Shown here piece by piece: positions 41,341 through 61,008 of a stretch of 64,000 nucleotides of DNA. Position 1 is the first letter of the stretch, and each line of letters opens with the position of its first letter. The translations under genes and the position numbers were made by a program. The DNA lies in NCBI GenBank assembly GCA_030057555.1, contig JASGUU010000006.1, positions 1 to 64,000 of the forward strand, read 5' to 3'. The notes beneath the pieces were generated by a model. The model did no database searches and was not told the DNA's origin. It saw only the letters and a list, made by a program, of their open reading frames with translations. The stretch is from Bacillota bacterium. Its GTDB lineage: Bacteria > Bacillota > Clostridia > Saccharofermentanales > Fastidiosipilaceae.

Positions 41341-41680
41341 ATCCGGTCGCTTGACAGCTGTACAGGAAGTGAAGAAACTGGCCTAACACCTAATACTAGA
41401 CGGAATTTCTTTTCAAAACACACCCGTTTTCCGGTAAAATAGTATGTAAATCCGTTGCAGAGTTGTTCGCACAGCTTGTGCAGTGTCACCTGGCGCCTGG
41501 CGATCTGTCGTCTCAGAATGCTGCTTCCGCAGCAGTTGGCCACGGACGCGAGTCGTGTTTTGCATGGCAGAAGCTGGTCCTACAGGAGCTTACACAGTTT
41601 CTCAGATGCCAGGACTCCCTGTTACTGCTGTTTTAACATCTGCCTGGAGACACAATGATCGTTAGAGGAGCTTCAAGCAA
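41341..41680 (+). promoter_or_regulatory. Upstream region and promoter of the LuxR-type gene
   Basis: TTCAAA (41412-41417) and TAAAAT (41435-41440) are separated by 17 bp, a plausible promoter giving a leader of about 230 nt. The leader has no recognised riboswitch. No gene is supported in this stretch. Confidence 0.5.
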
Positions 41681-42760
41681 GTGGATTGCATGGCGGAGAA
41701 GGTTCACAGCGACAGCGCGGGGTGTAAATCGGAGGATGCGTTTGTGGCTGCCCGGAGGCACGGTGAAGGAGCGAGGGCTATCCTGGAATATCTGTTTCCC
41801 GATCTGACTCTGGGCAACGGTTCACCAGACGACCCGGTTGTGGCGCTGTCCGATGAGGAAGAAGACGCAGTCGCAAATATGGTGCACTTCTTTTTACAGG
41901 CGCGATATGAGGAAGCCTCTGCCGAGGCCATACGCTGCAGGCGCAGCCGTCACCCGGAAATACGTGAACTGGCGTTGCTGGGACATGTCATGACCAACGT
42001 GGCACAGCACAATACCGAGGCTATCCTGAATGACTTTCAAACCCTGAACGTGAAAGCGCAGCATCCGGAAAACAGGCGAGTTGCCGTGCTCAATGATGTT
42101 TCCCGTTTCGTTTTGTCGGTCTTTTTCCATCTGAGTGAAGATATTGCTCCGCTGCCGCAGGTAGATTTCCGCGATAGTTCCGAGGGCATCCGGCTCTTTT
42201 CACTGTACGCGCGGTCTTACGCGCATTATCTGCAGCAGGAATATGCACAGGCGCTGGGTGTGGCTGAGGCGGCGCTGTTGATGGCTGCTGATCGTCATCA
42301 GATCATCAGCATCTACCTGAATCTGGCGGCTTCCATGGCGGCCATGAATCTGTCCCGTTTTGAGCAGGCCGACCAGTTCTTTCTCCATGCGCTGGAGCTG
42401 GCCATTCCGGACGGATACATCCAGCCCTTTATCGGGCATCACGGACCATTGCAGGGAATGGTGGAGAAACACATCCGTGACCGGGAACCAGAACTGTACA
42501 AGCTGATCGCGGAGAAGGTCGTGCGCTTCAGAGGCGGATGGACGAAGATTCACAATCCGCAGTCCCCCGACAAGGTTACCGACCTGTTGACTCCCTACGA
42601 ATATGCACTGGCCATGCTGGCAGCCAAGGGCAGGACCAATCAGGAAATTGCCGATTTCATGTACCTTTCTATCAACACGGTGAAATCCTACCTTTCGGTG
42701 ATTTATCAGAAGCTCGGCATTACAAAACGTACCGATCTGAAAGCGTGCTTGAGCAAATGA
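41681..42760 (+). CDS. LuxR-type transcriptional regulator with helical-repeat sensor region
   Basis: A 359-residue regulator. A long all-helical N-terminal region (about 50-260) has TPR-like repeats such as ARSYAHYLQQEYAQALGVAE and LNLAASMAAMNLSRFEQADQ, like MalT-type sensors but without the ATPase. The C-terminal HTH (about 295-355) reads LTPYEYALAMLAAKGRTNQE...NTVKSYLSVIYQKLG. GTG 41681 has AGAGGAG 10 nt upstream. It opens the signalling/NRPS region and is a likely cluster-situated regulator, an inference from position. No receiver domain is present. Confidence 0.88.
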   Translation: MDCMAEKVHSDSAGCKSEDAFVAARRHGEGARAILEYLFPDLTLGNGSPDDPVVALSDEEEDAVANMVHFFLQARYEEASAEAIRCRRSRHPEIRELALLGHVMTNVAQHNTEAILNDFQTLNVKAQHPENRRVAVLNDVSRFVLSVFFHLSEDIAPLPQVDFRDSSEGIRLFSLYARSYAHYLQQEYAQALGVAEAALLMAADRHQIISIYLNLAASMAAMNLSRFEQADQFFLHALELAIPDGYIQPFIGHHGPLQGMVEKHIRDREPELYKLIAEKVVRFRGGWTKIHNPQSPDKVTDLLTPYEYALAMLAAKGRTNQEIADFMYLSINTVKSYLSVIYQKLGITKRTDLKACLSK

Positions 42761-42874
42761 CAGATCATGACCAGGGTGGACGCTCTTTCCGACTGGCAGC
42801 CGCCCCGGCGCCATACCGTGTCATTGTTCTCCGGTTCTCGAAGCGCCCTGACGTCAGCGGGGCAAACCTGCAAT

Positions 42875-43192
42875 CTAGTCGGCCTGCTCGCTCAAAGGCA
42901 GAATGTGAATCCTGCTGTCGAGATTGGTCAATCTGAAGATCTCCAGCACATCGCTGCCCACGTTGATGACGGAGAAGTCAGCCTCCAGGGTCATGGCCTT
43001 TTTATAGGCGGACACGACCTGCCGGAGTCCGGATGAAGAAATGTACTCCAGCTCCCTGAAATCGAGCACAATCGATTCCGCCTCCGTGATCTTCTCCATC
43101 TCCGCTCCCAGGGCAGGCGCCGACTCGGTGTTCATCCAGCCTGCCGTGTGGATAATGAAGTCGAGATTGTTCTTTTCTACTGTAATGGTCAT
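42875..43192 (-). CDS. Anti-sigma factor antagonist (STAS domain)
   Basis: A 105-residue single STAS-domain protein of the SpoIIAA/RsbV type. The phosphorylatable serine lies in YISSSGLRQVV (about residues 50-60), preceded by SIVLDFRELE. Its ATG overlaps the stop of the PP2C phosphatase gene by 4 nt, so the two are co-expressed. In partner-switching systems the unphosphorylated form binds an anti-sigma kinase. No sigma factor gene is nearby, so its partner may be the ATPase domain of the phosphatase or of the MATE transporter at 57817. Confidence 0.93.
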   Translation of the reverse strand: MTITVEKNNLDFIIHTAGWMNTESAPALGAEMEKITEAESIVLDFRELEYISSSGLRQVVSAYKKAMTLEADFSVINVGSDVLEIFRLTNLDSRIHILPLSEQAD

Positions 43193-45141
43193 GTACGCTC
43201 CTCCTTGGCATAGGTAATGATACGCAAAACATTCTTTCCGTCCAGGTTCACATAGCGGCAGCAGTCCGCCAGGGATTGGAAGATCAGCCTCCCCAGACCG
43301 CCGATTTGCTCATCCGGATTGTAATCCTCCGCCCTGATTGTATCTTTTGTCTGGTCAAAGGGCCTGCCGCTGTCCGTGAACTGGATGGCAACCGTACCAT
43401 CTTCCCAGCTCTGCTTATGACAGCTCACGATCCCTCCCGGCAGGTCATAGGCGTAGGAACAGATATTGACAAAGCACTCTTCGGCTATCAGGCAGAGGCG
43501 CTTGCGCATCTCTGCGGGGATCCCTTCATCCGTGCGAATCCAGTTGTGCAGGCTGCCAAGTGCCGACAGCTCGGCCGGCAGGGTGAGCCTCGCCGAACGG
43601 GAGGTGAAGGAAAGCATGGTGATATCATCGTTCTGTTCGCTGCCGGCCGTAAAACGGTCCAGCTCGTTTTTAACCTGCGCCACCGCATCCGCACCATCCG
43701 TCTCCGAAAGGATCGTTTCAAGCCGTTCCATGCCGAAGAACTTCGCATTCAGGTCAATGGCTTCACTGACGCCGTCGGTATAGAGAAAGAGCGTGCTGCC
43801 GAGCGGAAAGGCCAGCTCGACAGTCTGGTATGTTTCACCGGAGAAAAGCCCCAGCGGTACTCCGCCCGCAGAGGAAAGGGGCGCGCGCTTCCCCTCATGC
43901 AGGAGGTAGGGAGGATTGTGCCCGGCGTTGGCATAGCGGACCACCCCCGCCTTCGGATCGGCATAGGCCAGAAAAACCGTAATGAACATCATGTTCGGGT
44001 TGGAATGTTCCAGTTCGGCATTCACGGCTTCCAGTACCTCGCCCGGCGTCAGGCCCTGTTTGACGAAGCCCCGGATCAGGGTGATGACGCTGGCCATGAA
44101 TATGGCTCCGCTGATACCCTTCCCCGATACATCCGCGACAACCAGCACCATATGGCCGCGGTCTGCGAAATAGTCGTAGAAGTCACCGCCTACATTCCTG
44201 GCAGGCAGCATGAGTGCGTGGATTTCCGAGACGGCATCCGCCTGGTGCGCTGCGGGCAGAAATCCCTGCTGGATTTTGGAGGCAACGCTGAACTCGTACT
44301 CCTGCCGGTTCTGCAGTTCCGTATAGGCCTTGATACGGGCGATATAGTCACGCGTATTCGCCGCCATGTGATTGAATGCCGTTCCGATATGGCTGAATTC
44401 ATTGTCGCCCCGGATGACCAGCGGCTCTACATCGTAATTGTCATGTTCGCCAAATGCCCTCATGCTGGCGCTGATGGTCTCAGCGGGCCGGATGACCTTC
44501 TTTTTCAGAACATGGTACAAAACAAAGGAGACGACGATCACGAGGCCGAGAAAGAAGACAATCTTCCAGATGAGCACTCTTTCAAAGCGGCTCGACAGAT
44601 CATCGGCTCTGATGTCGGCCCCGACAACCGCCGTCACTGATCCGTCCTGATCCCGCAGCGGCACATAGGCCGAAAACACATGTCCATATTGATTGTTTGT
44701 TTCGCGGGTGACGAGCGTCGTTTCGCCATGCATGACCGCTGTCAGCTCGGAGGAAATGTCCCGTTTTCTGACCGTGCCTGGCGGAAGGCTCCAGGCAATC
44801 TCGCGTTTCTCCTCATTTCCCTCGACACAGACATAGGTGATCTGCCCGGTATCTGTGTCCGGAATCATGATGTACAGATACTCCAGCTGAAAGCTTTGGA
44901 TCAGGATCTGAAAGGTCTGCGACATCACCGTGGCGACCTGCTCGTCGGCCATTACCGTCTCGGGAAGCACGCCATCGTAGAGGACGGCAATCACCTGCGC
45001 GGCATTGCTGGCCCTGGAAACCACCGTTTCCCGCACGAACACATCGGCTTCATACACACTCATGGCCGTCGTGATTCCGATTGTCAGGAGGCTGACAAGG
45101 AGGATCAGAACGAAGATGGATCTGGCAATGGAGTGTTTCAT
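43189..45141 (-). CDS. Membrane sensor PP2C phosphatase (SpoIIE/RsbU type) with C-terminal HATPase
   Basis: A 650-residue signalling protein. Two membrane helices (about 8-28 and 185-205) flank an extracellular sensor resembling a CACHE domain. A HAMP linker follows, then a SpoIIE-type PP2C domain (about 290-505) with NVGGDFYDYF, VVADVSGKGISGA, LFLYTDGVSEAID and EQNDDITML metal ligands. A C-terminal anti-sigma-kinase HATPase domain (about 515-650) keeps the N-box Asn in EECFVNICSYAY and DSGRPF and GGLGR boxes. One chain thus carries both phosphatase and kinase modules for the STAS protein. ATG 45141 is set by AAGGG 9 nt upstream. Confidence 0.93.
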   Translation of the reverse strand: MKHSIARSIFVLILLVSLLTIGITTAMSVYEADVFVRETVVSRASNAAQVIAVLYDGVLPETVMADEQVATVMSQTFQILIQSFQLEYLYIMIPDTDTGQITYVCVEGNEEKREIAWSLPPGTVRKRDISSELTAVMHGETTLVTRETNNQYGHVFSAYVPLRDQDGSVTAVVGADIRADDLSSRFERVLIWKIVFFLGLVIVVSFVLYHVLKKKVIRPAETISASMRAFGEHDNYDVEPLVIRGDNEFSHIGTAFNHMAANTRDYIARIKAYTELQNRQEYEFSVASKIQQGFLPAAHQADAVSEIHALMLPARNVGGDFYDYFADRGHMVLVVADVSGKGISGAIFMASVITLIRGFVKQGLTPGEVLEAVNAELEHSNPNMMFITVFLAYADPKAGVVRYANAGHNPPYLLHEGKRAPLSSAGGVPLGLFSGETYQTVELAFPLGSTLFLYTDGVSEAIDLNAKFFGMERLETILSETDGADAVAQVKNELDRFTAGSEQNDDITMLSFTSRSARLTLPAELSALGSLHNWIRTDEGIPAEMRKRLCLIAEECFVNICSYAYDLPGGIVSCHKQSWEDGTVAIQFTDSGRPFDQTKDTIRAEDYNPDEQIGGLGRLIFQSLADCCRYVNLDGKNVLRIITYAKEERT

Positions 45142-45794
45142 GAAGCGACGCCCTTTCCTGTCAGAAATGAATCGCCTGCCATGATAAGGCGTAAATCGCG
45201 CATGTCGTGAGACAGAGTGCCTTCCCGTCACCTGCCGGGACTCTACCGACAGCCCCGGATCCAGGGAGGAAGGAAACGAGCCTCGTGTAAATTATACCGT
45301 GGAACAGAGGGCTGAAGAAGAAGGAAGCCCTTCTCCTTCGCTGAGAGATGAAGCAGTGCCGCACAATCCGTGCGGCGGACACGGAACGGCTTTATAGACT
45401 ATTTCGCCCGGAAACGGGTATTTGTTATAAGGGCTTTCTGTTTATTATTGAAAAGGAAGAAGCCAGTCTGTTCATCCATGTAGCCGGCTTTGTTTCTACG
45501 CAGCAAACAAAGGAGAGGCCCCATGAAATGAATGTTGGCCCGTTCGGACAAGCGAAATGTACCTGGGCCACAGGCAGCGGCGCAGCTGCATTGAACGCCC
45601 GCACACCCTTGAGCGCCAGTTGCTCTCTTATCCGGAGCAATTGCCCGCCTTCTGGCGTGAACGGTGGATAACCACCCTGCGAAGACCTGCATCCGAGGTA
45701 ATGGATATTCCACCCGCTGGAAAGGAGGAGCTGTTGAAGGCTTCGGACCCGATCGAACTCACCCGCATCAGGGGTGAGGCTGGGAAGGGAGATT
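45142..45794. other. Gap upstream of the phosphatase and MBL genes
   Basis: On the minus strand a TATAAT -10 lies at 45291-45296, about 150 nt before the phosphatase start; its -35 is weak. The region 45350-45790 contains no supported gene. A GCACGGTGAA/TTCGCCGTGC hairpin lies at 45830-45852, just below this gap and ahead of the MBL gene, without a U tract. Confidence 0.4.
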
Positions 45795-45890
45795 ATGGAG
45801 AAGAATAGCAACGGCTATGAGGAAACAAAGCACGGTGAATCGTTCGCCGTGCAGCGATCGTTGTTCAAAAGAAAAGGAGAAAGGCAGTGA
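45795..45890 (+). CDS. Possible 31-residue leader peptide overlapping the MBL start
   Basis: A small frame from ATG 45795 to TGA 45888-45890 encodes a basic, hydrophilic peptide (MEKNSNGYEETKHGES...). Its stop overlaps the GTG start of the next gene (GTGA), and GGGAG lies just before it. That arrangement suits translational coupling, but the peptide has no recognised family and could be chance. Confidence 0.25.
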   Translation: MEKNSNGYEETKHGESFAVQRSLFKRKGERQ

Positions 45891-47698
45891 AAACGAAATT
45901 ACAAGTATTTGCTCTCGTGATCATTCTGGCTCTGGCCGGGACAGCCGGTTACGTGGCGGCAGAGGAAGCTGAAGCCGTGTCAGCGACATATGAGCCGGAG
46001 ACAGTACCCGTCCATCCAACGCTCCTGGCCAAGTATGAGGAATTCTTTCCAGCCGCAGTGTTGCAGGTGACAGACGGTGTCTGGGTTGCCAGAGGATACA
46101 ACCGTGACAATCCCGTGCTTATCGAGGGCGACGACGGCCTGATTGTCGTAGATCCCGGGGAGAGCATTCCCGCGGCAGAGACGGTCAAGGATGCGTTCAA
46201 TGCCAGCCTGGACAACATCTTTGACAGGAAACCCGTCATGGCAATCATCTACACCCATCACCATGACTGCCATATCAACGGCGCCTCTGTCTTTGCCGAC
46301 GAGCAGACGGAGATCATCGCACACGAGAGCCTGCTTGACAACATGTTCAGCGAGTGGTTTGGCCCGGTCTATCCGTCGCGCGTCGAGGGCGGCATCAAGA
46401 TGACAGGAATCATGTTCCAGGACGCACCCGTCCAGGACGGGGAAGGCTGGTTTGTCGGCTACGGCCTAGCCGGGACGCAGACGACCGGGCCAACAGGCTT
46501 CCTGGCGCCGACAAAGAGCATCGAGGAAGAGACCAGACTGACGATTGCCGGTGTTGATGTGGATCTCATTCCTGTGGCCGGTGAGACAACAGATGTCCTC
46601 CTGGTGTGGTTGCCGCAAAAAGAAGTCCTGATCCAGATCGCCGTCGTCTATGAGGCTTTTCCGGCTATCTCGACCACGCGGGGCAGCCGTCTGAGGGATC
46701 CGCTGGATTATGTCAACACCCTGAAGATTGCCAGGGGACTCAACCCCGAATACCTGGTGACGATCCATGGCCCCAATCCCGTCACCAGCGGAAAAGAAGA
46801 TGTCAACCAATACCTCACCAACTTCAGCGATGCCATTCAGTTCGTGAATGACCAGACACTCTACTACATGAACAGAAGCTATACAGCGGGGGAGATGATG
46901 GACCTGATCGAGCTGCCGCCCCATCTTGCCTCCAGTCCCTATCTGCAGGAGATTTATGGATCGAAAGAATGGAACATCGTCCACATCTTCCGCTATTACC
47001 GCGGTTATTACACCGGCGAAGTAAGAGATCTGTTTCCACAGACGACCCAGAGTGAGGCGGAGATGTCGGCCTTCCTCGCGGAAGGCGATGGTGATCTGGC
47101 AGCCAAAGCCCAGGCGGCTCTGGAGTTCAACCCGGAATGGGCATTGAGACTCGCCGACGATGCGCTCCTGCTGGACCCGGATAACTCTGTGGCATTCGAG
47201 ACCAAGAAGTCGGCCATGCTGGCCCTGGCAGAAAGCACGATGAATTCACAGGCGCGCAACATGCTTCTGTCCGACTACCTGCTGCTGACCGATCAGGCCA
47301 ACAGAGTCTACCCATTCGGTAATCCAGAGCATGTTTATGCGAATATCGACGATAGATTTGTTGAGTTGATGCCCCTGGCCACCCTGCATCGCATTCTGGC
47401 CGTCAATCTCAATGCAGCGAAATCGCTGGAGACGGACATCGTCGTCAGCCTTCAGCTGACCGACATCGAAGACCCCGAGGCGCCGGATCACTACACGCTG
47501 AACGTTCGTAAGGGCATCCTCGAGGTGGATCCCCCATCCGCAGGCGAGAGCCAGTTTGAGATCGTGACCGACCAGCTGACCTGGAAGCAACTGGTTCTGA
47601 CCAGGCTCAGTCCTGAAGAAGCCGTAGCAAATGGAAAGGTGGTTGTTTCGGGAGAAACTCCGGAAAGCTTCTACTCTTTCATGGATCTATTCTATTGA
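45887..47698 (+). CDS. Secreted alkylsulfatase-like MBL-fold hydrolase with variant metal site
   Basis: A 603-residue exported protein. The signal peptide (about 1-25) is followed by a metallo-beta-lactamase domain (about 50-310), an alkyl-sulfatase dimerisation domain (about 385-520, RNMLLSDYLLLTDQ) and a C-terminal SCP2-like domain (about 525-600). The metal motif at 124-129 reads HHHDCH, where the family normally has HxHxDH; a Cys takes the conserved Asp position. GTG 45887 follows AAAGGAGAAAGG. Related enzymes cleave alkyl sulfate esters. The altered site could mean a different metal or substrate. It precedes the phosphopantetheinyl transferase of the NRPS cluster. Confidence 0.87.
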   Translation: MKTKLQVFALVIILALAGTAGYVAAEEAEAVSATYEPETVPVHPTLLAKYEEFFPAAVLQVTDGVWVARGYNRDNPVLIEGDDGLIVVDPGESIPAAETVKDAFNASLDNIFDRKPVMAIIYTHHHDCHINGASVFADEQTEIIAHESLLDNMFSEWFGPVYPSRVEGGIKMTGIMFQDAPVQDGEGWFVGYGLAGTQTTGPTGFLAPTKSIEEETRLTIAGVDVDLIPVAGETTDVLLVWLPQKEVLIQIAVVYEAFPAISTTRGSRLRDPLDYVNTLKIARGLNPEYLVTIHGPNPVTSGKEDVNQYLTNFSDAIQFVNDQTLYYMNRSYTAGEMMDLIELPPHLASSPYLQEIYGSKEWNIVHIFRYYRGYYTGEVRDLFPQTTQSEAEMSAFLAEGDGDLAAKAQAALEFNPEWALRLADDALLLDPDNSVAFETKKSAMLALAESTMNSQARNMLLSDYLLLTDQANRVYPFGNPEHVYANIDDRFVELMPLATLHRILAVNLNAAKSLETDIVVSLQLTDIEDPEAPDHYTLNVRKGILEVDPPSAGESQFEIVTDQLTWKQLVLTRLSPEEAVANGKVVVSGETPESFYSFMDLFY

Positions 47699-47774
47699 GA
47701 AAGACACGGAAGCGGCTCAGTTGCGAATCCAAATGGAGATGGACGTGATTCCTGACTTTCGGACCTGTTGAGGC

Positions 47775-47824
47775 ACAAAGCCCGGGGAGGTTTGCAGCGC
47801 AGCCGTCTTCGGGCTTTGTCCTCT
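47775..47824 (+). terminator. Terminator after the MBL gene
   Basis: ACAAAGCCCG (47775-47784) pairs with CGGGCTTTGT (47810-47819), followed by CCTCTTAT. The rest of 47699-48075 has no supported gene; it probably contains the promoter of the PPTase/NRPS genes, which I could not fix. Confidence 0.7.
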
Positions 47825-48075
47825 TATCCTGTTCTGTGAAGCATGAGCATGTATGAAGACGGGAGGAGAATCAGATGCCGGCACCTGCTGCGATCGTCGC
47901 CATGTTTGCCAGATTACACCCGGCGAACATGCCCGTTATGGGACGGACATCGACAGACAGGGTCGGCAACGGACAACGTGAACACACCTCCGCTATGTGT
48001 TGATAAAGCGTATTTCGCAGATGATGGATTATAGTGCAGCCAGCAGAAGTGGGATGTGTTCCGGGGAATAGGTGA

Positions 48076-48699
48076 ATGAAACTCTATATAGGCGATATCA
48101 GGGGTCTGTTTGATCTTCCCGGAGTGGCATTGCTGGATGAAAGCCGCAGAAACCGTGTCTACAGGTATCACCGGCTGGAGGATCGGGCACGTTGTCTGAC
48201 GGCTGGACTCATGCTGCGCCGTGTCTTTGGAGAGGATAATGTTTCCTCTATGACCGTATCCCCATTTGGCAAACCGATTCTGCCGGACGGTCCCTGTTTC
48301 AACCTTTCCCATTCCGGTAACATGGTTGTACTGCTTGCAGATGAGCGGTCGGTGGGTGTGGATGTTGAGTTCATTACCCCGTATTCACAAAGTGTGGCCA
48401 GGAAAGTCTTCACCACCGTGGAGCAGAACTGGCTCAGCTGTCAGGCAACGGACGAAGCCTTTTTCCGCCTGTGGACGGGCAAGGAAGCCATTATGAAGGC
48501 GCTGGGACTGGGATTTCATCTGCCGCCGGAGAGTTTTGAGATCTGTCCGGATGACGGCATGGCCAATATCGTGGGTGGCCAGAGCTGGTATTTGCACTGG
48601 CTTGCCCTGGATCATCATATAATTTGCCAGGTGGCAGAGCATCCCGGCAGGCCCGCGATGCCTGTATGGCTGTCAAGAAACGAATTGCTGCAGAGATGA
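48076..48699 (+). CDS. Sfp-type 4'-phosphopantetheinyl transferase
   Basis: A 207-residue enzyme that loads phosphopantetheine from CoA onto the carrier domains of NRPSs. Family motifs are FNLSHSGNMV, VGVDVEF (Mg-binding Asp and Glu) and FFRLWTGKEAIMKALG. It starts after an AGGTG ribosome site. It lies 157 nt upstream of the NRPS and is its obvious activating enzyme. Confidence 0.94.
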   Translation: MKLYIGDIRGLFDLPGVALLDESRRNRVYRYHRLEDRARCLTAGLMLRRVFGEDNVSSMTVSPFGKPILPDGPCFNLSHSGNMVVLLADERSVGVDVEFITPYSQSVARKVFTTVEQNWLSCQATDEAFFRLWTGKEAIMKALGLGFHLPPESFEICPDDGMANIVGGQSWYLHWLALDHHIICQVAEHPGRPAMPVWLSRNELLQR

Positions 48700-48856
48700 A
48701 GTCCAGGTGGAGATGCCTGAATGTTTGCCGAAACGAAAATCAATGCTGGAAGACAGATGGAAGTCAATGATTAAAGGGTCTCTTCATCCCGCTGAAGAAC
48801 CGCTTCCACGCCTGCAACGCTGAATACCGTGACATATGGTAGAAGGAGTCTTTTCT

Positions 48857-51800: not shown

Positions 51801-54800
51801 GCGATTTCCCAGGTAAAACGGTGGCAGGCTGGGGTGGAAGAACGATTATTTCTCTCTTCAGGGAGCAGGCTGCCAGGACTCCCGACAACACGGCGGTCGT
51901 ATTCGGTAAGGAGACTCTGAGTTATCGTCAGCTGGATGAGGCAACCGAACGTCTGGCTGTCCATCTGAGGCAGGGAGGTGCCGATCGCGGAAGCGTTGTG
52001 GGCATCATGGTCAAGCGAAGCATGATGATGCCGATAGGCGCACTGGCTGCATTGAAAACGGGTGCGGCCTATCTGCCTCTTGATCCCGGCTATCCTGCCG
52101 ACCGCCTGCAGTATATGCTCGAGGACGCAAATGCAAAGTTGCTGATCTGTGACAGCGACCTGTTGGACCGTGTACCGGAGTATTCCGGCTTTATCGTGGA
52201 CAGCGCCAGCGTAGATACCCTTCCTGCTGTAGAAGCGCTGGAAGATCTCTCGCGTCCGGAGGATCTCTTCATCCTGCTTTACACCTCCGGCACCACCGGC
52301 AAGCCCAAGGGCGTCATGCTGACCAACGCCAATATGGCGAATTACCTTCACTTCTACGCGGACAGCTATGAGCTTGGCGAAAGCGACAATATTACTGCCT
52401 ATGCCAGTTTCGGCTTTGATGCGCACATGATGGATTTGTATCCCACCCTGCTCAGGGGGGCCTGCCTCCATATCCTGCCGGAGGAAATGCGTCTGGATCT
52501 GCCGGGCATTCGCAGGTATTTTGAAGAGAATAAAATCACCGTGGCATTTTTGACCACACAGCTGGGCAGGCAGTTTGCTGAAAGCATCTACGTTCCCACA
52601 CTGCGCGCCCTGTCGGTGGGCGGCGAAGCGCTGGTGCCGCTGGAGCCGCCGGAATATGCCCTGTTTAATCTCTACGGCCCCACGGAATGTGCGATTGCCT
52701 GTACCCGACAGCAGGTCGACAGGCTCTATGATCGTGTTCCCATCGGCAGGGCCACCTACAACACAGCTCTCTATGTGGTGGATGGACGGGGCCGGCTGGC
52801 GCCTGTGGGTGTTCCCGGAGAACTCTATATCTCCGGTGTACAGGTAGCGGATGGCTATCTGAACCGCCCTGACCTGACCGCAGAGAAATTCATTCGTAAT
52901 CCCTTCACCGACGAGCCGCTCTATGAACGGGTGTACAAGAGCGGCGATGTGGTGCGCTTCCTGCCGGACGGTGCGATCGACTTCGTTGGCAGGCGTGACT
53001 TCCAGGTGAAGATCCGCGGCTTCCGCGTAGAACTGACAGAGATTGAGGGCCGCATCCGCGCGTTTGAAGGCATCAGGGATGCAGCGGTCATCGCCCAGGA
53101 CGATGCCGGCGGCGGCAAGCGTGTGGTGGCCTATGTAGTTTCCGATAAACCAGTGGACATCAAGGCCATGAATGCCTTCATCGAAGATGAGCTGCCCGCC
53201 TACATGGTGCCCTCTGCCACCATGCAGATCGAGCGCATTCCGCTGAACCAGAACGGCAAGGTCAATCGCCGTGAACTGCCGCGCATTCAGCTGCAGGTGG
53301 AAGAGATTGTCGCACCGAGAAACGAAGAGGAAAAGGCCATTTTTGACGCAGTTGTGTCAGTGCTGAAGCATGAGGATTTCGGCGTGACCACGGACCTGAT
53401 GTATGCAGGGTTGAACTCTCTCTCTGCCATCAAGGCCGCGGCACGGATCACGGAAAACACCGGTAGAGATCTGCGCACTGCTGATCTCATGCGGGAAAAG
53501 ACCATTGAAAAAATCGCTCTGCTGATGGCTGACAGCGGCGACTATCAGATCAGGACCTATGACAGGCAGGCCTGGTATCCGCTGACGCAGAACCAGATGG
53601 GCCTGTATTTCGCCTGCGTGAAGGATCCCGGCACGCTGGTGTATAACATTCCTGTTGAGCTGTCCTTTGGCAGCGGCGTGGAGCCGGAAAGACTGCACAG
53701 CGCCATCCTGCGGGTGATTGAAGCCCATCCCTATATCAAGACCCGCTTCTCCATGCGGGACAATGAGCCGGTACAACTGCGTCTGGACGACGCTGAGACA
53801 GAGATACCGGTGATACACTGCACGGCGGAAGAATATGCCAGCCGCAGGGCCGCGTTCGTGCGCCCCTTCTCCTTCTTCGAAGGGGCGCTGTTCCGCATGG
53901 AAATCTGCGTGCTGCCCGATGCCGTGAAGCTGCTCGTGGATTTCCATCACATGATTTTTGACGGCGGCTCCATGGATATTTTCCTGCACGATCTGGCCGC
54001 GGCTTACGAAGGCGCCCGGATTGCGGCGGAAAGCTTCACCAGCTTTGACCTCGCGCTGCTGGAGCAGGAAAAGACCAGTGGCAGTGCCTGGGCAGAGGAT
54101 AAGGCTTTCTTCCAGCAGCGGCTGGGCGATGGAGAAGGCGCCACCGTATTCCCTGCTGACAAAAAGAGTGATGTCCCCGGTGTGCCCCGGTCAGTGAAAG
54201 CCACTGTAGCCAAAAGCAGCGTGGAGCAGGCCATCAAGGGCATGGGCCTTACAGCCTCGAATCTCTTCCTGGCTGCAAGCATGCTGGTTTCCGGGCGCTT
54301 TGCCTCTGCGAAGGATGTGCGGATCGCTGCCATCAGCAACGGTCGTGAGGGAGCTCATGTGCAGCGCAATTTCGGCATGCTGGTCAAAACACTGCCCATG
54401 GTCATGACGATTGACCCGGCTGCGACTGCCGCCGCCTACCTGGCTGGCGTGCAGCAGGAAATGAATGAGGTGCTGGCACATCAGGCCTATTCCTACCTGC
54501 AGGCGGCGTCGGATTACGGCTACCATGCCGAGATGCTCTATGCCTATCAGGGCGGTGTCGTTTCTCATTATGAAGTGGGCGACAGCCCTGTCAGCATGCG
54601 CCCCCTCAGCCTGAACAGCGCCAAATTCCCCATTTCCGTCAACATTCAGGAAAACGATACGGACTTCATCGTGGAAGCGGAATACGACGATGCCGTGTTT
54701 AACGCCTCTACCATGCGCACGCTGGCAGCATGTATCGCCCATACCGCCGGCATGCTGGTCCGCAATCCGGACGCGCCTGTCGGCAGCCTTTCGATCTCTA

Positions 54801-57800
54801 CCCCGGAGCAGCTGGCGCTGGTGAATTCCTTCAGCCCCCAGCTTCCCGCCAGGCCGGTCGGCGGACTGCATCAGCTCTTTGAGCGCTGGGCCGGCCAGAC
54901 ACCGGATGCTCCGGCTCTGATGGCGTCGGATGCCGTTCTCAGCTTCGCCGAGCTGAACCGGCGTGCCAATCGGCTGGCACACAGCCTGCTGGCTCTGGGC
55001 GTCAGGCGTGAGGATCGCGTGGCTTTTATGCTGGGGCGTGACAGCCGCATCCTGGTGTCCATGCTGGGCATTATCAAGGCCGGCTGCGCCTATATTCCCG
55101 TGGATCCGGACTACCCCCGGGAGCGTGTCGAGCATGTGCTGGAGGACAGCCAGGCCCGCTTCATTCTGACGGACGGTCCTTCTTCTTTGACGAACAGTCT
55201 GGATATAAACGCATTGTTGGCGAACGAAAATACGCGCAATCCGAATCTGCCCGTACGTCAGGAGCAGCTCTGCTACATCATCTATACCTCAGGTTCCACC
55301 GGAAAGCCCAAGGGCGTGATGCTCTCCCACGGCGGCATCATCAACTATGTGCTCGATGATGAGCAGAACCGCCATGTGCGGGCGCTGGTGGAGCAGCGCT
55401 GCACCATGTGCTCGGTGACCACGGTCAGTTTTGACATGTTCCTGAAGGAAGCCTTCACCACGCTGATGAATGGCCTGACACTGGTGCTGGCTGACGATGA
55501 GGAAGCCAGGAACCCGGATCGGCTGGCTGCCCTGTTTGCGCGCACGGGCGCCAATGCCTTCAATGCTACACCGTCCCGTATGCTGCAGTATATGGAACTG
55601 CCTGCCATGAAGGAGGCACTGGCGAAGTGTCGGGTCATCATGGCAGGTGGTGAGGCGTATCCCCCTGTCTTGTATCGAAAGCTGCGCGAAGTGACCGACG
55701 CGGTGCTGATTAATACCTATGGTCCGACCGAAATCACGGTATCTTCCAACGGAAAACTGCTCACGAGCGAAGTCATTACCATCGGTGCGCCGCTGCGCGG
55801 CGTGGTGGAGCAGGTGATGGATATCTATGGCCAGCCCCTGCCGGCAGGCTTTATCGGTGAACTGTGGATTGCAGGCTATGGTGTGGCACGGGGCTACTTT
55901 GGCAATCCCGAAATGACCGCCGAACGCTTTGTGGAATACGATGGACAGCGCTGGTACAAATCCGGTGATCTCGCCAGATGGACGGAGGATGGCGAAATCG
56001 TCGTTCTGGGCAGAAATGACGGGCAGATCAAGCTGCGCGGCCTGCGCATTGAACTGGGTGAAATCGAAAATACGCTGAACGCGGTGGACGCTGTGCGTTC
56101 CTGCGCTGTCCTGGTGCAGAAGCTGCACGGACAGGAGCATCTCTGTGCCTACTATACCGCCACGCGTGAACTGCCCGCGGAAGAACTGCGTGAGACCCTG
56201 CTAAAGACCCTCACGAAATACATGGTGCCCACTGCCTATCTGCAGCTGGATGAAATGCCCCTGACTCCCAACGGCAAGATCGACCGCAAACGTCTCACGG
56301 ACGCCAGACTGATGCAGCGTCAGGAATACCAGGCTCCTGCCAATGAGGCAGAGCAGACCTACTGCGATATCTTTGCCGGCATTCTGCACCTGGAACGCGT
56401 GGGGGCAACGGACAATTTCTTTGATCTCGGTGGTACTTCGCTGCTGGTGACGCAGGTGACCATCGATGCCGCACAAAAAGGCATCGGACTGAGCTATGGC
56501 GATGTCTTTGCCAATCCCACTCCCAGAGAACTGGCTGCCATCCGCCAGCAGGCGGAGCCGTCGCATGAGCAGGATGAGATTGCGGATTATGATTACGCGC
56601 CCATCCAGCAGCTGCTGGAGGAAAACAGCATCGAAGCCCTGCGGGGCGGCAGGCTGCGTGAGCTGGGGAATGTCTGTATCACAGGTGCCAGCGGTTTCCT
56701 GGGCATCCATGTCCTGCGTGCCTATCTGCAGATGGAGAAGGGAACAGCCTTCTGTGTCGTCCGCGGCAGAAAGAACCTGGGCGCCGAAAAGCGGCTCAGG
56801 AGCATGCTCGCCTACTATTTCGGCGGAGACACGCTGAAGATCAATGGCAAGCCCTTTCTGAACGCGATGGATGAATTATTCTCCAGCCGCATTGTGGTGA
56901 TTGACGGCAGCATCACGGATGAGTCCCTGTATCAGGAACTTGACCGGCTGCCCATTGATACCTATATCAACTGTGCCGCCAACGTGAAACACTTCTCCGC
57001 TGGTACGGATATTGAGGACATTAACTACGGCGGCGTCAAGCTGGCGCTGGACTTCTGCCGCCGGAAGAAATGCCGTTTTGTGCAGGTGTCCACCGCCAGC
57101 ATCGCCGGCATGAGCATCAATGGCAGACCGGATGAAACGCTCCTTCTGAGTGAGCGGATGCTCTATTTTGGCCAGGATCTTTCCAACAAGTATGCCCGCA
57201 GCAAATTCCTGGCGGAGCGTGCCGTGCTCCAGTCTGCGCTAGAGGGTGTGGATGTGAAGATCATGCGCGTGGGCAACCTGATGGCCCGCGATGCGGATGG
57301 GGAATTCCAGATCAATTTTACGACCAACAACTTCCTCGGCCGGCTCAAGGCATACAGTCTCATTGGCAGGATTCCCTATGAAGCCATGGGCATGAATACG
57401 GAATTTGCGCCCATTGATTTCACTGCCGTGGCGGTGCTGCTGCTGGCGAAAACGCCCGCAGCGTGCCGCGTGTTCCATCCCTACAACGATCATCATATCT
57501 TCCTGGGCGATGCCATCGAGGTTATGCGCCGACGGGGCCTGGACATTAAACCCTGTGAGACGGAGGAATATGAGCGCTGCTTTGGCGAGGCCATGCGGGA
57601 TCCCGCCAGGGCGCGTTATCTCAATTCGCTGATCGCCTACAGCGAGCATGGCAAGCGCATCGTGCCCATCAGGTCCAGCAACAGCTACACCTCTCAGGTG
57701 CTGCTGCGTCAGGGCTTTAAGTGGCCCATCACGTCCGATGCCTATCTGGATCGCTTCTTTGCCATGATGGAAGGCCTCGGTTTCTTCGATCAGGATTCTG

Positions 57801-57817
57801 AAATTGGGATGGAGTAA
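48857..57817 (+). CDS. Three-module NRPS with terminal reductase (A-T-C-A-T-C-A-T-R)
   Basis: A 2986-residue nonribosomal peptide synthetase. AAGGAG sits 8 nt before ATG 48857. Domain order: A1 (VYTSGSTGNPKG near 131, VNANGKVDR), T1 (GGDS, Ser near 510), C1 (HHIIMDG near 680), A2 (LLYTSGTTGKPKG near 1140), T2 (GLNSLS, Ser near 1520), C2 (HHMIFDG near 1697), A3 (IYTSGSTGKPKG near 2142), T3 (GGTS near 2528), and an SDR reductase (TGASGFLG near 2609, catalytic YARSK near 2778). Release is therefore reductive, giving an aldehyde or alcohol. By my alignment A2 and A3 keep the Asp that binds the substrate amino group (FDAHM, FDMFL), but A1 lacks it (FSFIAVV), so the first unit may not be an ordinary amino acid. 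No starter C or epimerase domain is present. Confidence 0.95.
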   Translation: MFLDLFARTVREYADKPALVFAGTPISYAGLDDESSRIASCLMAGGIGRGDIVVIRLPRCREAVAAILGVMKSGAAVCVTEEGYPEERIDFVIRDTQARVVIDFNWLEQLPAAAKPVSFPEWQKDDPAIVVYTSGSTGNPKGVVNSQRALSLAVRGNTLGRTEHDTFLSVASFSFIAVVLEILTPLSLGGTIHIAGDNLRQDARALVDYIRQHGITTSFFPPQMARIILPQLENQLSSMVIGSDRVTNIYSDRVRLFNVYGSSETCGPLTSFQIDRAYPDVTPIGQAYAGSRVYILDDENHLLPEGEEGEICVSGQVALGYVNLPELTAERFIPNPWSESEDDKILFKTNDIGRINEHGQLEYVQRRDWMIKVRGYRVEPGEIEATIVRLTSADQAVVKGFENANGETSLFCVYTAEEALAPEAVTAAIRGFLPAYMMPAFLQQVDRLPVNANGKVDRQSILPPDAAKFRSAYQAPENDREAAICAAFQRVLGLDRVGTLEDFNLIGGDSISAAKVQTELEGMNLSASDILSLGTPQKLAARVKAGLTRAEKRDCWPLTFAERQMVVEQGMNPQSIAYNINFLAMEIAGEFDVARLEQALGAMLKRHAVLRSFYPMEKGEYVHRILDELDIPVVRRSCAREELPGILERENRPFDLAKPPLLRCQVFEHTPDLCTLHFCFHHIIMDGSGWPTFVDELFRLYHGETLPDLVFDHLDFAVWQAEHDDLTGQEAFFRDMFADGVPENEMPTHVKRPSELPEADEDMVATWSGALIKEAAGRLGVTQYAFLFGVLGMTLAKYCGSEDVVVGTAMSGRTLKEQEKMLGMFVNTLPVRLKPAGDTLLKDYLLQTAQTIRGVQANQTYPFERLVPMLAPDRNASRSPVFDVIFNYLQELPLPEIEGARAAYIPVKGQALQMDLVLEAVPEGPDFRFKLSYSRQLYDVAVVENFLEQFLVTLQRCCDDGDNQMLVDLVELPERQRQEILCDFPGKTVAGWGGRTIISLFREQAARTPDNTAVVFGKETLSYRQLDEATERLAVHLRQGGADRGSVVGIMVKRSMMMPIGALAALKTGAAYLPLDPGYPADRLQYMLEDANAKLLICDSDLLDRVPEYSGFIVDSASVDTLPAVEALEDLSRPEDLFILLYTSGTTGKPKGVMLTNANMANYLHFYADSYELGESDNITAYASFGFDAHMMDLYPTLLRGACLHILPEEMRLDLPGIRRYFEENKITVAFLTTQLGRQFAESIYVPTLRALSVGGEALVPLEPPEYALFNLYGPTECAIACTRQQVDRLYDRVPIGRATYNTALYVVDGRGRLAPVGVPGELYISGVQVADGYLNRPDLTAEKFIRNPFTDEPLYERVYKSGDVVRFLPDGAIDFVGRRDFQVKIRGFRVELTEIEGRIRAFEGIRDAAVIAQDDAGGGKRVVAYVVSDKPVDIKAMNAFIEDELPAYMVPSATMQIERIPLNQNGKVNRRELPRIQLQVEEIVAPRNEEEKAIFDAVVSVLKHEDFGVTTDLMYAGLNSLSAIKAAARITENTGRDLRTADLMREKTIEKIALLMADSGDYQIRTYDRQAWYPLTQNQMGLYFACVKDPGTLVYNIPVELSFGSGVEPERLHSAILRVIEAHPYIKTRFSMRDNEPVQLRLDDAETEIPVIHCTAEEYASRRAAFVRPFSFFEGALFRMEICVLPDAVKLLVDFHHMIFDGGSMDIFLHDLAAAYEGARIAAESFTSFDLALLEQEKTSGSAWAEDKAFFQQRLGDGEGATVFPADKKSDVPGVPRSVKATVAKSSVEQAIKGMGLTASNLFLAASMLVSGRFASAKDVRIAAISNGREGAHVQRNFGMLVKTLPMVMTIDPAATAAAYLAGVQQEMNEVLAHQAYSYLQAASDYGYHAEMLYAYQGGVVSHYEVGDSPVSMRPLSLNSAKFPISVNIQENDTDFIVEAEYDDAVFNASTMRTLAACIAHTAGMLVRNPDAPVGSLSISTPEQLALVNSFSPQLPARPVGGLHQLFERWAGQTPDAPALMASDAVLSFAELNRRANRLAHSLLALGVRREDRVAFMLGRDSRILVSMLGIIKAGCAYIPVDPDYPRERVEHVLEDSQARFILTDGPSSLTNSLDINALLANENTRNPNLPVRQEQLCYIIYTSGSTGKPKGVMLSHGGIINYVLDDEQNRHVRALVEQRCTMCSVTTVSFDMFLKEAFTTLMNGLTLVLADDEEARNPDRLAALFARTGANAFNATPSRMLQYMELPAMKEALAKCRVIMAGGEAYPPVLYRKLREVTDAVLINTYGPTEITVSSNGKLLTSEVITIGAPLRGVVEQVMDIYGQPLPAGFIGELWIAGYGVARGYFGNPEMTAERFVEYDGQRWYKSGDLARWTEDGEIVVLGRNDGQIKLRGLRIELGEIENTLNAVDAVRSCAVLVQKLHGQEHLCAYYTATRELPAEELRETLLKTLTKYMVPTAYLQLDEMPLTPNGKIDRKRLTDARLMQRQEYQAPANEAEQTYCDIFAGILHLERVGATDNFFDLGGTSLLVTQVTIDAAQKGIGLSYGDVFANPTPRELAAIRQQAEPSHEQDEIADYDYAPIQQLLEENSIEALRGGRLRELGNVCITGASGFLGIHVLRAYLQMEKGTAFCVVRGRKNLGAEKRLRSMLAYYFGGDTLKINGKPFLNAMDELFSSRIVVIDGSITDESLYQELDRLPIDTYINCAANVKHFSAGTDIEDINYGGVKLALDFCRRKKCRFVQVSTASIAGMSINGRPDETLLLSERMLYFGQDLSNKYARSKFLAERAVLQSALEGVDVKIMRVGNLMARDADGEFQINFTTNNFLGRLKAYSLIGRIPYEAMGMNTEFAPIDFTAVAVLLLAKTPAACRVFHPYNDHHIFLGDAIEVMRRRGLDIKPCETEEYERCFGEAMRDPARARYLNSLIAYSEHGKRIVPIRSSNSYTSQVLLRQGFKWPITSDAYLDRFFAMMEGLGFFDQDSEIGME

Positions 57818-59574
57818 TGGCCATGTATGAACGAAGCGGACAGATCATCCGGCAAAAGTTTGGGGAATATCTGCTGCCCACGGTACTGACCTCCATGGCG
57901 ATTTCCATGGCTTCGGTGGTGGATGGCATCATCGTGGGCAGTCTGCTGGGTGATGTGGCACTGGCTGCCGTTGGCCTGTCCGGCCCGCTCATCTTCGGCA
58001 TCAATCTTATTTATATGCTCTTTGCCGTCGGCGGGCTTAGCTGTGCTTCCGTCTCGCTGGGTAAACGTGATTTTGCCATGGCGAACCAGTACTTCACCAT
58101 GTCCGTCGGCGGAGGACTCGGCGCGATGGGCATCTTCCTGCTGGTGATGCAGATCATTCTGCACCCGCTCTGCTCCGGCCTCGCCGGCGGGGATCTGCAG
58201 CTGGCCGCCCTGACGGAGAGCTACCTGCGCCCGTTGCTGTTCACCGGTCCGGCACTGATGTTTTCCTCCGGCATGGCTGTGTTCATCCGGATGGACGGCA
58301 ATCCCAAAGTCTCTGCTGTGATTGTGGTGATCGCCAACGCGGTCAATCTGGTGCTGGACTATGTTCTGATCCGCTTCTTGAACACCGGTATCGCCGGGGC
58401 AGGCCTGTCTACCGCACTGGGCTATGTGGCCGGTTCTGTCATTGTGATTCCCTATCTGCTGAACAAAAAGCGCAGTTTCCATTTTGTCCGCCCCGGGAAA
58501 GGCATCCTGAAAACCCTGCGTGATATCCTGAAGAGCGGCATGCCCAAGGCCGTCAGCCAGGTCTGCAATCTGCTGCGCTCTCTGGTGATCAACACCGTGA
58601 TTGTCGCCAAACTGGGTTCCATCGGCATGTCCATCATGACGGTATGTACCAATATGCTGATGATCTCCAATATCTTTGAGGCCGGTATTGCGGACACCCT
58701 GCTGCCCATTGTCGGCACGCTCTATGGCGAACGGGATTTCTTCGGTATCCGTCAGGCCATGATAACCGCCCGGCGTGTGCTGATGGTGACAAGTGCCGTG
58801 CTGGTGGCCTTTTTCCTGACGGCACCACAGCTGATGGGTATGCTCTTTGGCCTGACATCGCTGGAAGCGTTGGCTCTGCTCAAGCCTGCGCTGCGGCTGT
58901 TCGCGCTGTACCTTCCCTTTTCAGGTGCTTTACTGCTGCTGCAAAATTTCTATAACATCACCGAGCGCCAAAGTCTGGCCACCAGCCTGGTGGTGATGGA
59001 TGGCCTTGTGTTTGTGGTTCCCTTCGCATTGCTGCTGTCCGGCATCGAGGCCAATCTGCTCTGGCTGAGCAATGCCGCTTCCGGCGCATGTACGCTGCTA
59101 GTTCTGCTGCTCCTGGCCCGCCGCATCCAGAAAAAAGAAGACGTACAGGGATTGCTGATGATCCGCGAGAGGGACGACTACATCGACAGATTTGATTTTA
59201 CGATCACGGCCAGCAGGGAAGAGGCTGTCCGACTGTCTGAGCGGGTTTTGGCTCTGGCGGAGAAAGCGACTGTTAACACCCGCCTGCTGAAGAGACTGGC
59301 GCTGGTGCTGGAAGAAATGACGCTCGCATCCGTTCACTATGCCCATGCAGACAGAAGCGGCCTGATTGACATCCTGGTCCATGTGACGGATAGAGAGGTG
59401 ACTATCCTGATGCGCGATAATGGAAAACCCTTCAACCCCCTGGAGTATATTCCTGAAGAGAATGACGGCCTGATAACCGACAGCATCGGGCTGGTGAAAA
59501 AGCTGGCTTCACGCATGGAATACAGCCGTCAACTGGGGTTCAATACCAGCGTTCTGACCTTTAACATCCAATAA
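57817..59574 (+). CDS. MATE efflux transporter fused to anti-sigma-kinase-like HATPase domain
   Basis: A 585-residue protein whose start shares the last base of the NRPS stop. Residues 1-440 form a twelve-helix MATE transporter (Na+ or H+ driven export of small molecules), the likely exporter of the peptide. Residues about 455-585 are cytoplasmic and match the SpoIIAB/RsbW-like HATPase fold: ASREEAVRLSERVLALAEKA, LVLEEMTLASVHYAH, ILMRDNGKPFNP and SIGLVKKLASRM. The N-box Asn is replaced by Ala and the second glycine box is reduced, while the DxG box stays, so kinase activity is doubtful. It may bind the STAS protein encoded at 42875. Confidence 0.92.
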   Translation: MAMYERSGQIIRQKFGEYLLPTVLTSMAISMASVVDGIIVGSLLGDVALAAVGLSGPLIFGINLIYMLFAVGGLSCASVSLGKRDFAMANQYFTMSVGGGLGAMGIFLLVMQIILHPLCSGLAGGDLQLAALTESYLRPLLFTGPALMFSSGMAVFIRMDGNPKVSAVIVVIANAVNLVLDYVLIRFLNTGIAGAGLSTALGYVAGSVIVIPYLLNKKRSFHFVRPGKGILKTLRDILKSGMPKAVSQVCNLLRSLVINTVIVAKLGSIGMSIMTVCTNMLMISNIFEAGIADTLLPIVGTLYGERDFFGIRQAMITARRVLMVTSAVLVAFFLTAPQLMGMLFGLTSLEALALLKPALRLFALYLPFSGALLLLQNFYNITERQSLATSLVVMDGLVFVVPFALLLSGIEANLLWLSNAASGACTLLVLLLLARRIQKKEDVQGLLMIRERDDYIDRFDFTITASREEAVRLSERVLALAEKATVNTRLLKRLALVLEEMTLASVHYAHADRSGLIDILVHVTDREVTILMRDNGKPFNPLEYIPEENDGLITDSIGLVKKLASRMEYSRQLGFNTSVLTFNIQ

Positions 59575-59631
59575 AGTGAAAAAAGATATCTTCCGCTCAT
59601 AAGAAAACCATGAAACGCAGGAGAAATTGAT

Positions 59632-61008
59632 ATGGAATTCATTGACGCAAAAGAGGCGGCTGCTCTGGTGGCCGGTGCCGATCGGCGGGACAGGAAAGAG
59701 ATTGAGGCTCTGGCGCAGCAGCGTCTTCATTTCCTGGTGGACTATGCGCGGGAGCATTCTCCCTACCTGAAGGAAAAATACGCGGATCTTCCTGATAACT
59801 ATGGTCTGGCGGATATTCCCATCTCCACCCGGGAAGAGATGACGCAGCAGTTTGATCGCTGGGTCTCAGATCCCGAGATCACGAGCGAAAAAGTGAATGA
59901 ATATCTGGCTGATTTTGAAAACCTGTTCACGCCGTTCCTCGGGAAGTACAGGGTCATCAGCACCTCCGGGACGACGGCGAAGCCGCTGCGCATCATCCGT
60001 GACAGCCGACACCTGGCTATTCATGATGCATTGATGGCCCAGCGCTATTTTGGCGGTCCCCTTCTGAAGGATGTGGAGGGACTCGATGAGCCGGATCTGA
60101 AACAGTGCGCCATCATCTCGCCCGGCGGCATGAATTCTTCCTATCTTTCCTTTGAACGTTTACGCAGAAGCTACAAGGCCCGCGGGATGGAGGACCGTAC
60201 GCTTTTTTTGTCAACGCTTACGCCTCCGGAGGAAATGATCCTGAAACTGAACGCATTTCAGCCCGATATCATCGGCTGCTATCCTTCCGTGATCTATTCT
60301 CTGGCCTTTGAGCAGCAGGCGGGCAGGCTCGATATTCATCCAAAGATCATCGGCTGTTCTGCAGAAAAGCTGCCTGAGGAAAACAGAAAATTCATCAGCG
60401 AGGTTTTCGGCTGTCCGGTAAATGACAATTACTGCAGTACCGAAGGCGGCGAGGTTGCCATGCTCTGTCCCAACGGTCATCTGCATGTAAACAGCGACTG
60501 GGTCATCGTGGAGCCGGTAGATCGGGAAGACAATCCCGTGCCCTGCGGTGTCAAATCCGAAGGTATCCTGATGACCAATCTGGCCTGTCTGGTGCAGCCG
60601 GTGATTCGATATCATATGTCCGACAGCGTGATCATGCACGATGAGATCTGCGGCTGCGGTCTGAATACCCCCTGGATCGAAATTGAAGGCCGAGTGGAAG
60701 ACGTTCTGGAGTTTGATCGCAACGGTACAGCGGTACGCATTCCGGGTTTTCTGTTTCAGGTGTGTACGGACGAATTCTCCGGATGTGATCACTGTCAGGT
60801 GATCCAGCGGGCCCCGGATGCCATCGAGATAAGAGCTTCAATTCAGCAGGGCTATGACCGAATCGAAACAGAGCAGAAGCTTCTTTTCGCTATTCGGAAG
60901 TTTCTGGAGGGCAACGGACTGCATTCCATCCGGATTGAACTGGTGGATAAGCCTCTCCAGCGAACCCGAAGCGGCAAACTCCGTATTGCGTTTAAAGACT
61001 TTGTCTGA
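59632..61008 (+). CDS. PaaK-like adenylate-forming ligase
   Basis: A 458-residue enzyme of the phenylacetate-CoA ligase/coenzyme F390 synthetase type. It has the P-loop-like ISTSGTTAKPLRI, NDNYCSTEGGE before the adenylation centre, and a PaaK C-terminal domain ending in TRSGKLRI with the catalytic lysine. CAGGAGA precedes its ATG. It lies 57 nt after the MATE gene in the same direction and is probably co-transcribed. It could activate an aryl or short acid for the NRPS or further modify the product. Confidence 0.88.
   Translation: MEFIDAKEAAALVAGADRRDRKEIEALAQQRLHFLVDYAREHSPYLKEKYADLPDNYGLADIPISTREEMTQQFDRWVSDPEITSEKVNEYLADFENLFTPFLGKYRVISTSGTTAKPLRIIRDSRHLAIHDALMAQRYFGGPLLKDVEGLDEPDLKQCAIISPGGMNSSYLSFERLRRSYKARGMEDRTLFLSTLTPPEEMILKLNAFQPDIIGCYPSVIYSLAFEQQAGRLDIHPKIIGCSAEKLPEENRKFISEVFGCPVNDNYCSTEGGEVAMLCPNGHLHVNSDWVIVEPVDREDNPVPCGVKSEGILMTNLACLVQPVIRYHMSDSVIMHDEICGCGLNTPWIEIEGRVEDVLEFDRNGTAVRIPGFLFQVCTDEFSGCDHCQVIQRAPDAIEIRASIQQGYDRIETEQKLLFAIRKFLEGNGLHSIRIELVDKPLQRTRSGKLRIAFKDFV

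Follow-up and report, generated by a model that had tools for sequence, protein, structure and literature searches.

The question raised by this locus is what a partner-switching system, known mainly for the release of sigma factors, might regulate when no sigma factor accompanies it. The locus occupies positions 41681-61008 of the window, the 64,000-nucleotide stretch of DNA analysed here (positions 1-64,000 of JASGUU010000006.1, assembly GCA_030057555.1), and is a cluster of switch, nonribosomal peptide synthetase (NRPS) and exporter genes, every one of which is intact. Pfam and NCBIfam profiles, run on the locus proteins for the gene calls, bore out the inventory given in a preliminary description of the same DNA: a LuxR-type regulator, a STAS protein, a PP2C phosphatase fused to a HATPase, a 4'-phosphopantetheinyl transferase (PPTase), a three-module NRPS with a terminal reductase, a MATE-HATPase fusion and a PaaK-like ligase. 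A secreted alkylsulfatase-like protein (45887-47698) had been overlooked. The results suggest, with a probability of roughly 0.5, a sigma-free partner switch whose output would be the MATE exporter, with the STAS protein docking on a predicted pseudokinase domain carried by the transporter.

The two signalling genes lie on the minus strand and share 4 bp. The STAS protein (42875-43192, 105 residues) resembles RsbV and SpoIIAA (Pfam STAS, E=4e-13) and scored above the cut-off of the anti-sigma antagonist model TIGR00377. Its Ser53 (codon 43034-43036) aligns with Ser56 of RsbV (reference 6m36_B), and the equivalent serine was kept in all 27 STAS domains of the MATE-HATPase loci described below. 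The adjoining gene (43189-45231, 680 residues; Pfam SpoIIE, E=2e-49) encodes a membrane sensor with a transmembrane (TM) helix, an alpha/beta extracytoplasmic domain, a second TM helix, a HAMP domain, a SpoIIE-type PP2C domain and an RsbW-like HATPase (about 43213-43569; HATPase_c_2). The AlphaFold2 model of this protein had a mean predicted local distance difference test score (pLDDT) of 78, and its top PDB match was the RsbU-RsbW protein Rv1364c; the PP2C domain of SiaA also matched. Although the open reading frame (ORF) starts with a GTG at 45231, the ATG at 45141 is the likely true start, as the pLDDT was below 50 over the first 32 modelled residues. In the alignment, the PP2C catalytic motifs GGDFYD, DVSGKG and DD were invariant or almost so. 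The N, G1 and G2 boxes of the attached HATPase (EECFVN, DSGRPF and GGLG) were all intact, and it was the only RsbW-type kinase in the window with intact ATP-binding motifs.

The locus thus has the phosphorylatable STAS serine, the PP2C phosphatase and the kinase of a canonical Rsb or SpoII partner switch, and lacks the cognate group-3 sigma factor. No sigma factor was found on the window contig, as the preliminary description had stated for the cluster, and the search was extended to the host genome (2.9 Mb, 96% complete) for STAS, HATPase_c_2, SpoIIE-type PP2C and sigma-70 region 2 domains. The genome's complement is a single STAS protein, a single strong SpoIIE-type PP2C and a pair of RsbW-like HATPases, every one of them encoded in this locus. 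A further SpoIIE-type PP2C match, on contig C44, was weak, and three other HATPase_c_2 matches were histidine kinases as judged by inspection of their sequences. Eight sigma factors were assigned by inspection as SigA, SigI-like, SigH-like or extracytoplasmic function types; none of the eight in this 96% complete assembly was recognised as a SigB/F/G-type (group-3) factor. A distant sigma partner was rejected, since none of the STAS, HATPase_c_2 and sigma-70 region 2 matches of the whole genome fitted that role.

The second RsbW-like domain is the C-terminal part (59185-59565) of the exporter, which is encoded on the plus strand at 57817-59574 (Pfam MatE, E=9e-26, and HATPase_c_2). The gene starts 1 bp within the NRPS stop. 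The AlphaFold2 model (pLDDT 89, predicted template modelling score 0.88) predicted the HATPase part as an alpha/beta domain; Foldseek identified a MATE fold, with MATE matches at a TMt of about 0.8, and Asp36 in the first TM helix was at least 90% conserved. The exporter shares its fold with the ClbM-type MATE (PDB 4z3n), which has neither a C-terminal HATPase nor a switch. ClbM belongs to the NRPS-polyketide synthase cluster for colibactin.

The profile of the MATE-borne HATPase family matched RsbW (6m36_A, E=5e-6) and SpoIIAB (E=1e-3), but the window protein has Ala504 (codon 59326-59328) in the place of the N-box asparagine and no longer has a G2 box. Across 54 MATE-borne domains (49 recognisable and five vestigial), only one retained the N-box asparagine, the G1 aspartate and the G2 glycines together, in contrast to 18 of the 19 co-encoded HATPases, whether free, fused to PP2C or fused to STAS-APH proteins; the sequences in these counts are not all independent, and the pattern persisted across clusters formed at 50% identity. 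Within the family the catalytic N-box glutamate was present in almost all members, the asparagine in about half and the G1 aspartate in most, while the G2 motif was lost in 53 of 54. Gene decay was rejected as the cause of the motif loss, because purifying selection acts on this HATPase part of the exporter (ratio of nonsynonymous to synonymous substitution rates, 0.04-0.25). The MATE-borne HATPase is therefore predicted from its sequence to be a pseudokinase. The preliminary description had proposed to test STAS binding to both HATPase domains of the cluster; the two are not equivalent, one having intact kinase motifs and the other degraded ones. In a single genus with NRPS-linked exporters (L132-L135), the MATE C-terminal extension resembles a vestigial HATPase with neither the catalytic glutamate pair nor the G2 box, which suggests a late loss of the regulatory domain.

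To score how often these genes co-occur, as the preliminary description had proposed, homologues were gathered by the MATE-HATPase sequence alone from 58 genomes of relatives, 398 of the phylum and 391 of the class. This gave 52 loci, which formed 35 clusters when grouped at 50% identity. Neighbours within 10 kb were detected with profiles built from these loci and with Pfam for selected proteins; the genomes are drafts and metagenome-assembled genomes (MAGs), mostly of one bacterial phylum, with flanks sometimes cut by contig ends. STAS, PP2C or RsbW-like HATPase genes were found in 24 of the 35 clusters, many of them abutting the exporter gene, and the window lineage, in which the distance is 12.6 kb, would be the 25th. 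Switch genes were near none of 21 loci of ordinary MATE transporters (Fisher p=1e-7 against the fusions). In a second control, ordinary MATEs drawn largely from genomes that carry the fusions, there were two in 20 (p=2e-5), one of which was a sporulation sigma-F-type operon. Sigma genes were not enriched (one of 35 fused clusters, four of 21 controls). What hinted at a frame transition in one "MATE efflux" cluster proved to be unrelated.

Condensation domains were near only eight of the 35 clusters, and other exporters of the family had ATP-grasp enzymes, a GH3-type ligase, an acyltransferase or APH-type kinases as biosynthetic neighbours. What recurs is consequently the MATE-HATPase with the switch, beside which the NRPS is one kind of biosynthetic gene among several. 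Among the sampled genomes, the window lineage and G546 (L123 and L194) were the only ones seen to have the complete set of NRPS, STAS, PP2C and MATE-HATPase. The earlier suggestion of a conserved association thus held in that the association recurs, here and in the published cluster of Methanobrevibacter ruminantium (PMC2812497), but the conserved unit is smaller than the NRPS set then envisaged.

In several loci the STAS domain itself is joined to an enzyme. Four loci encode proteins of about 530 residues that combine STAS with an NRPS Condensation domain (L064, 11540-13144; L065, 8251-9843; L066, 8101-9696; L067, 7786-9390), and the gene is 0-24 bp from that of the MATE-HATPase. These fusions keep the second histidine and the Asp-Gly of the HHxxxDG motif (YHxxMDG or YHATVDG). 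Beside other MATE-HATPases there are STAS-APH(kinase)-HATPase proteins (L111, 10451-12040; L112, 13201-14808; L140, 7139-8701) and STAS-APH proteins (L110, 8317-9525; L136, 15801-17036).

The gene set of the window is conserved in related MAG lineages, the nearest records being four MAG contigs labelled Clostridiaceae, Christensenellaceae or Bacillota. One genome (G001), which also has a single STAS protein, keeps the order PaaK, MATE-HATPase, NRPS, PPTase, alkylsulfatase, PP2C-HATPase, STAS and LuxR whole. A second (G037), whose MATE-HATPase is 84% identical, has the set with the STAS and PP2C genes co-oriented with the NRPS and the alkylsulfatase-like gene elsewhere. The linkage of switch and NRPS outlasts this inversion, which argues for a function. 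The LuxR gene adjoins the switch genes in both genomes. The NRPS of G037 (L016, 7887-16871) is split into two ORFs inside the first adenylation domain, by a frameshift or an assembly error.

In the proposed mechanism, the PP2C protein would sense an extracytoplasmic signal that shifts the balance between its phosphatase and its HATPase kinase, so that this one protein would act as both kinase and phosphatase for the STAS protein and set the phosphorylation of Ser53. Such dual action on STAS proteins has been reviewed for SypE and PA3346 (PMC8256260). In the manner of RsbV and RsbW, unphosphorylated STAS would bind the RsbW-like pseudokinase domain at the cytosolic end of the exporter, and docking would permit or block transport, phosphorylated STAS being released. 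The cargo would be the NRPS product. In the STAS-Condensation fusions, the same docking could carry a biosynthetic enzyme to the exporter. The wider proposition, that a widespread MATE family uses a decayed RsbW domain as a phosphorylation-controlled STAS dock, so that export is gated without a sigma factor and STAS-enzyme fusions bring natural-product enzymes to the transporter, is put forward tentatively, at a little under even odds.

Several observations weigh against a switch that acts on the exporter. Ten of the 35 clusters, with the window lineage counted as linked, lack switch genes inside the 10-kb range; among them are NRPS-linked fusions of one genus (L115 and L118-L120). The mirror-tree comparison was weak, STAS distances correlating with those of the MATE-HATPase at r=0.30 and with those of its TM part at r=0.25, values that barely discriminate. 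In the window, the STAS and PP2C genes and the NRPS operon are read in divergent directions, and the LuxR gene could be a transcriptional output of the switch. This last point leads to the possibility that transcription of the NRPS cluster is under the control of the switch, whether directly, through LuxR or through an unrecognised anti-sigma/sigma pair, with the MATE HATPase as a membrane-tethered STAS sink that feeds export status back to expression. Transcriptional control is the classical use of STAS, PP2C and HATPase proteins, the conserved LuxR regulator adjoins the switch, and control of NRPS expression is what Leahy et al. proposed in 2010 for M. ruminantium (PMC2812497), so that a regulatory role had already been proposed for a switch that the preliminary description took to be unexplained. 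Nevertheless, neither a SigB/F/G-type sigma nor a free RsbW was found in the genome, sigma genes are not enriched near MATE-HATPases, and it is to the transporter, frequently in the absence of an NRPS, that the switch is most tightly linked across genomes; we regard transcriptional control as rather unlikely. Of the earlier proposal that the switch acts on the transporter or the NRPS instead of a sigma factor, the transporter part agrees more closely with the wider comparison than a sigma output does.

The MATE-borne HATPase might instead be a working STAS kinase or a sensor of ATP level, through which the state of the transporter feeds into STAS phosphorylation. The residues retained across the family, the N-box glutamate above all, are compatible with this, as is the sole fully intact MATE-HATPase (L061, 9713-11431), at whose locus STAS and PP2C genes are present and no other RsbW-like HATPase was detected nearby. 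The window protein, however, has lost the N-box asparagine and the G2 glycines, nearly the whole family is without the G2 motif and intact HATPases are often encoded separately, which makes a working kinase quite unlikely. It is improbable that the STAS protein mainly recruits or switches the NRPS, with the MATE HATPase as a docking anchor through which synthesis and export are coupled. The STAS-Condensation genes abutting the exporter gene and the STAS-APH-kinase fusions beside other MATE-HATPases are what such coupling would predict, but the STAS protein of the window is free and its NRPS has no recognisable docking domain.

The NRPS whose product would be exported (48836-57817, plus strand, 2993 residues) has the order A-T-C-A-T-C-A-T-R, with three AMP-binding (adenylation, A), three PP-binding (thiolation, T), two Condensation (C) and a terminal NAD_binding_4 reductase (R) domain in Pfam. 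The reductase motifs ITGASGFLG and YARSK are visible, and the domains are those of a reductase-releasing NRPS. On alignment to a GrsA adenylation domain, the A1 specificity code (IALFVGVGPK) appears to have lost the equivalent of Asp235, whereas A2 (DAMFSGLIAK) and A3 (DMKNMGTVSK) retain it. Given that A1 lacks the aspartate for alpha-amino binding and that a reductase carries out release, the product is probably an acyl-dipeptide aldehyde or alcohol, a guess from the domain sequences.

The remaining genes flank these. The LuxR/GerE-type gene (41681-42760, plus strand, 359 residues; Pfam GerE, E=2e-10) likely encodes a cluster-specific regulator. The PPTase (48076-48699, plus strand) is of the Sfp/AcpT type (Pfam ACPS, E=8e-18). 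The PaaK/F390-synthetase-like AMP-forming ligase (59632-61008, plus strand) matched Pfam AMP-binding and TIGR02304 (E=3e-28) only below cut-off; F390-synthetase/PaaK-type models and PaaK-like ligases in the PDB (6siw, E=6e-15) matched as well. It is a conserved neighbour in G001, G037 and L074 and possibly supplies the starter acid. Just past it lies an arylsulfotransferase (ASST) gene (61466-63352, minus strand) that was not found beside the G001 version of the cluster. The alkylsulfatase-like protein, encoded on the plus strand, has a metallo-beta-lactamase fold (Pfam Alkyl_sulf_dimr, Lactamase_B and Alkyl_sulf_C) with the metal motif THHHDCH in place of the usual HxHxDH. Its gene sits between the sensor phosphatase and the PPTase, and the Pseudomonas SiaA system responds to sodium dodecyl sulfate, an alkyl sulfate (PMC7647112); this may be a coincidence.

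The proposed switch was compared with known systems. The RsbU-RsbV-RsbW-SigB and SpoIIE-AA-AB-SigF systems have the same three signalling domains and the conserved phosphoserine; the window differs in that no cognate sigma was found and a second RsbW-like domain, without kinase motifs, is on an exporter. SiaABCD of Pseudomonas aeruginosa likewise combines a membrane PP2C phosphatase, a kinase and a STAS-like protein with a non-sigma output (PMC7647112, PMC8457831), and among the NCBIfam models the window phosphatase matched SiaA best, though below cut-off. SiaABC acts on biofilm by a partner switch (PMC7647112), and SiaC activates the diguanylate cyclase SiaD (PMC8457831). SiaABCD differs in its output SiaD, its separate kinase protein and its phosphosite, Thr68; the window locus has no diguanylate cyclase. 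Precedents for a STAS domain acting on a transporter are MlaB, which binds the transporter ATPase MlaF (PMC7367683), and the SLC26/SulP family. In the former the partner is an ABC ATPase, in the latter STAS is fused to the transporter, and no PP2C/HATPase switch is described in the text consulted (PMC7367683). A cluster close to that of the window is mru0066-0071 of M. ruminantium, in which an NRPS has serine phosphatases, an anti-sigma antagonist and a MatE exporter on its flanks and for which regulation and export were suggested (Leahy et al. 2010, PMC2812497). Compared by its published description, it shares the NRPS, STAS, phosphatase and MatE components and differs in having a terminal thioesterase, and that description does not mention a HATPase on MatE, the loss of kinase motifs or a missing sigma partner.

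Searches of the open-licence literature turned up no partner switch described as containing a MATE-HATPase fusion. The association of NRPS, switch and MatE was published in 2010; new here are the linkage of switch genes to the MATE-HATPase, a switch inventory confined to one locus, the pseudokinase pattern and the STAS-Condensation fusions. If the proposed mechanism is correct, partner switching, of which few cases of enzyme activation are known besides sigma release, would also act on a secondary transporter, and the gene association that has been puzzling since 2010 would be explained. It would provide anaerobes with a means of timing the export of natural products. The pairing of MATE-HATPase and switch recurs in many unrelated clostridia, and the MATE-HATPase and STAS pair would then serve as a genome-mining marker of regulated small-molecule exporters.

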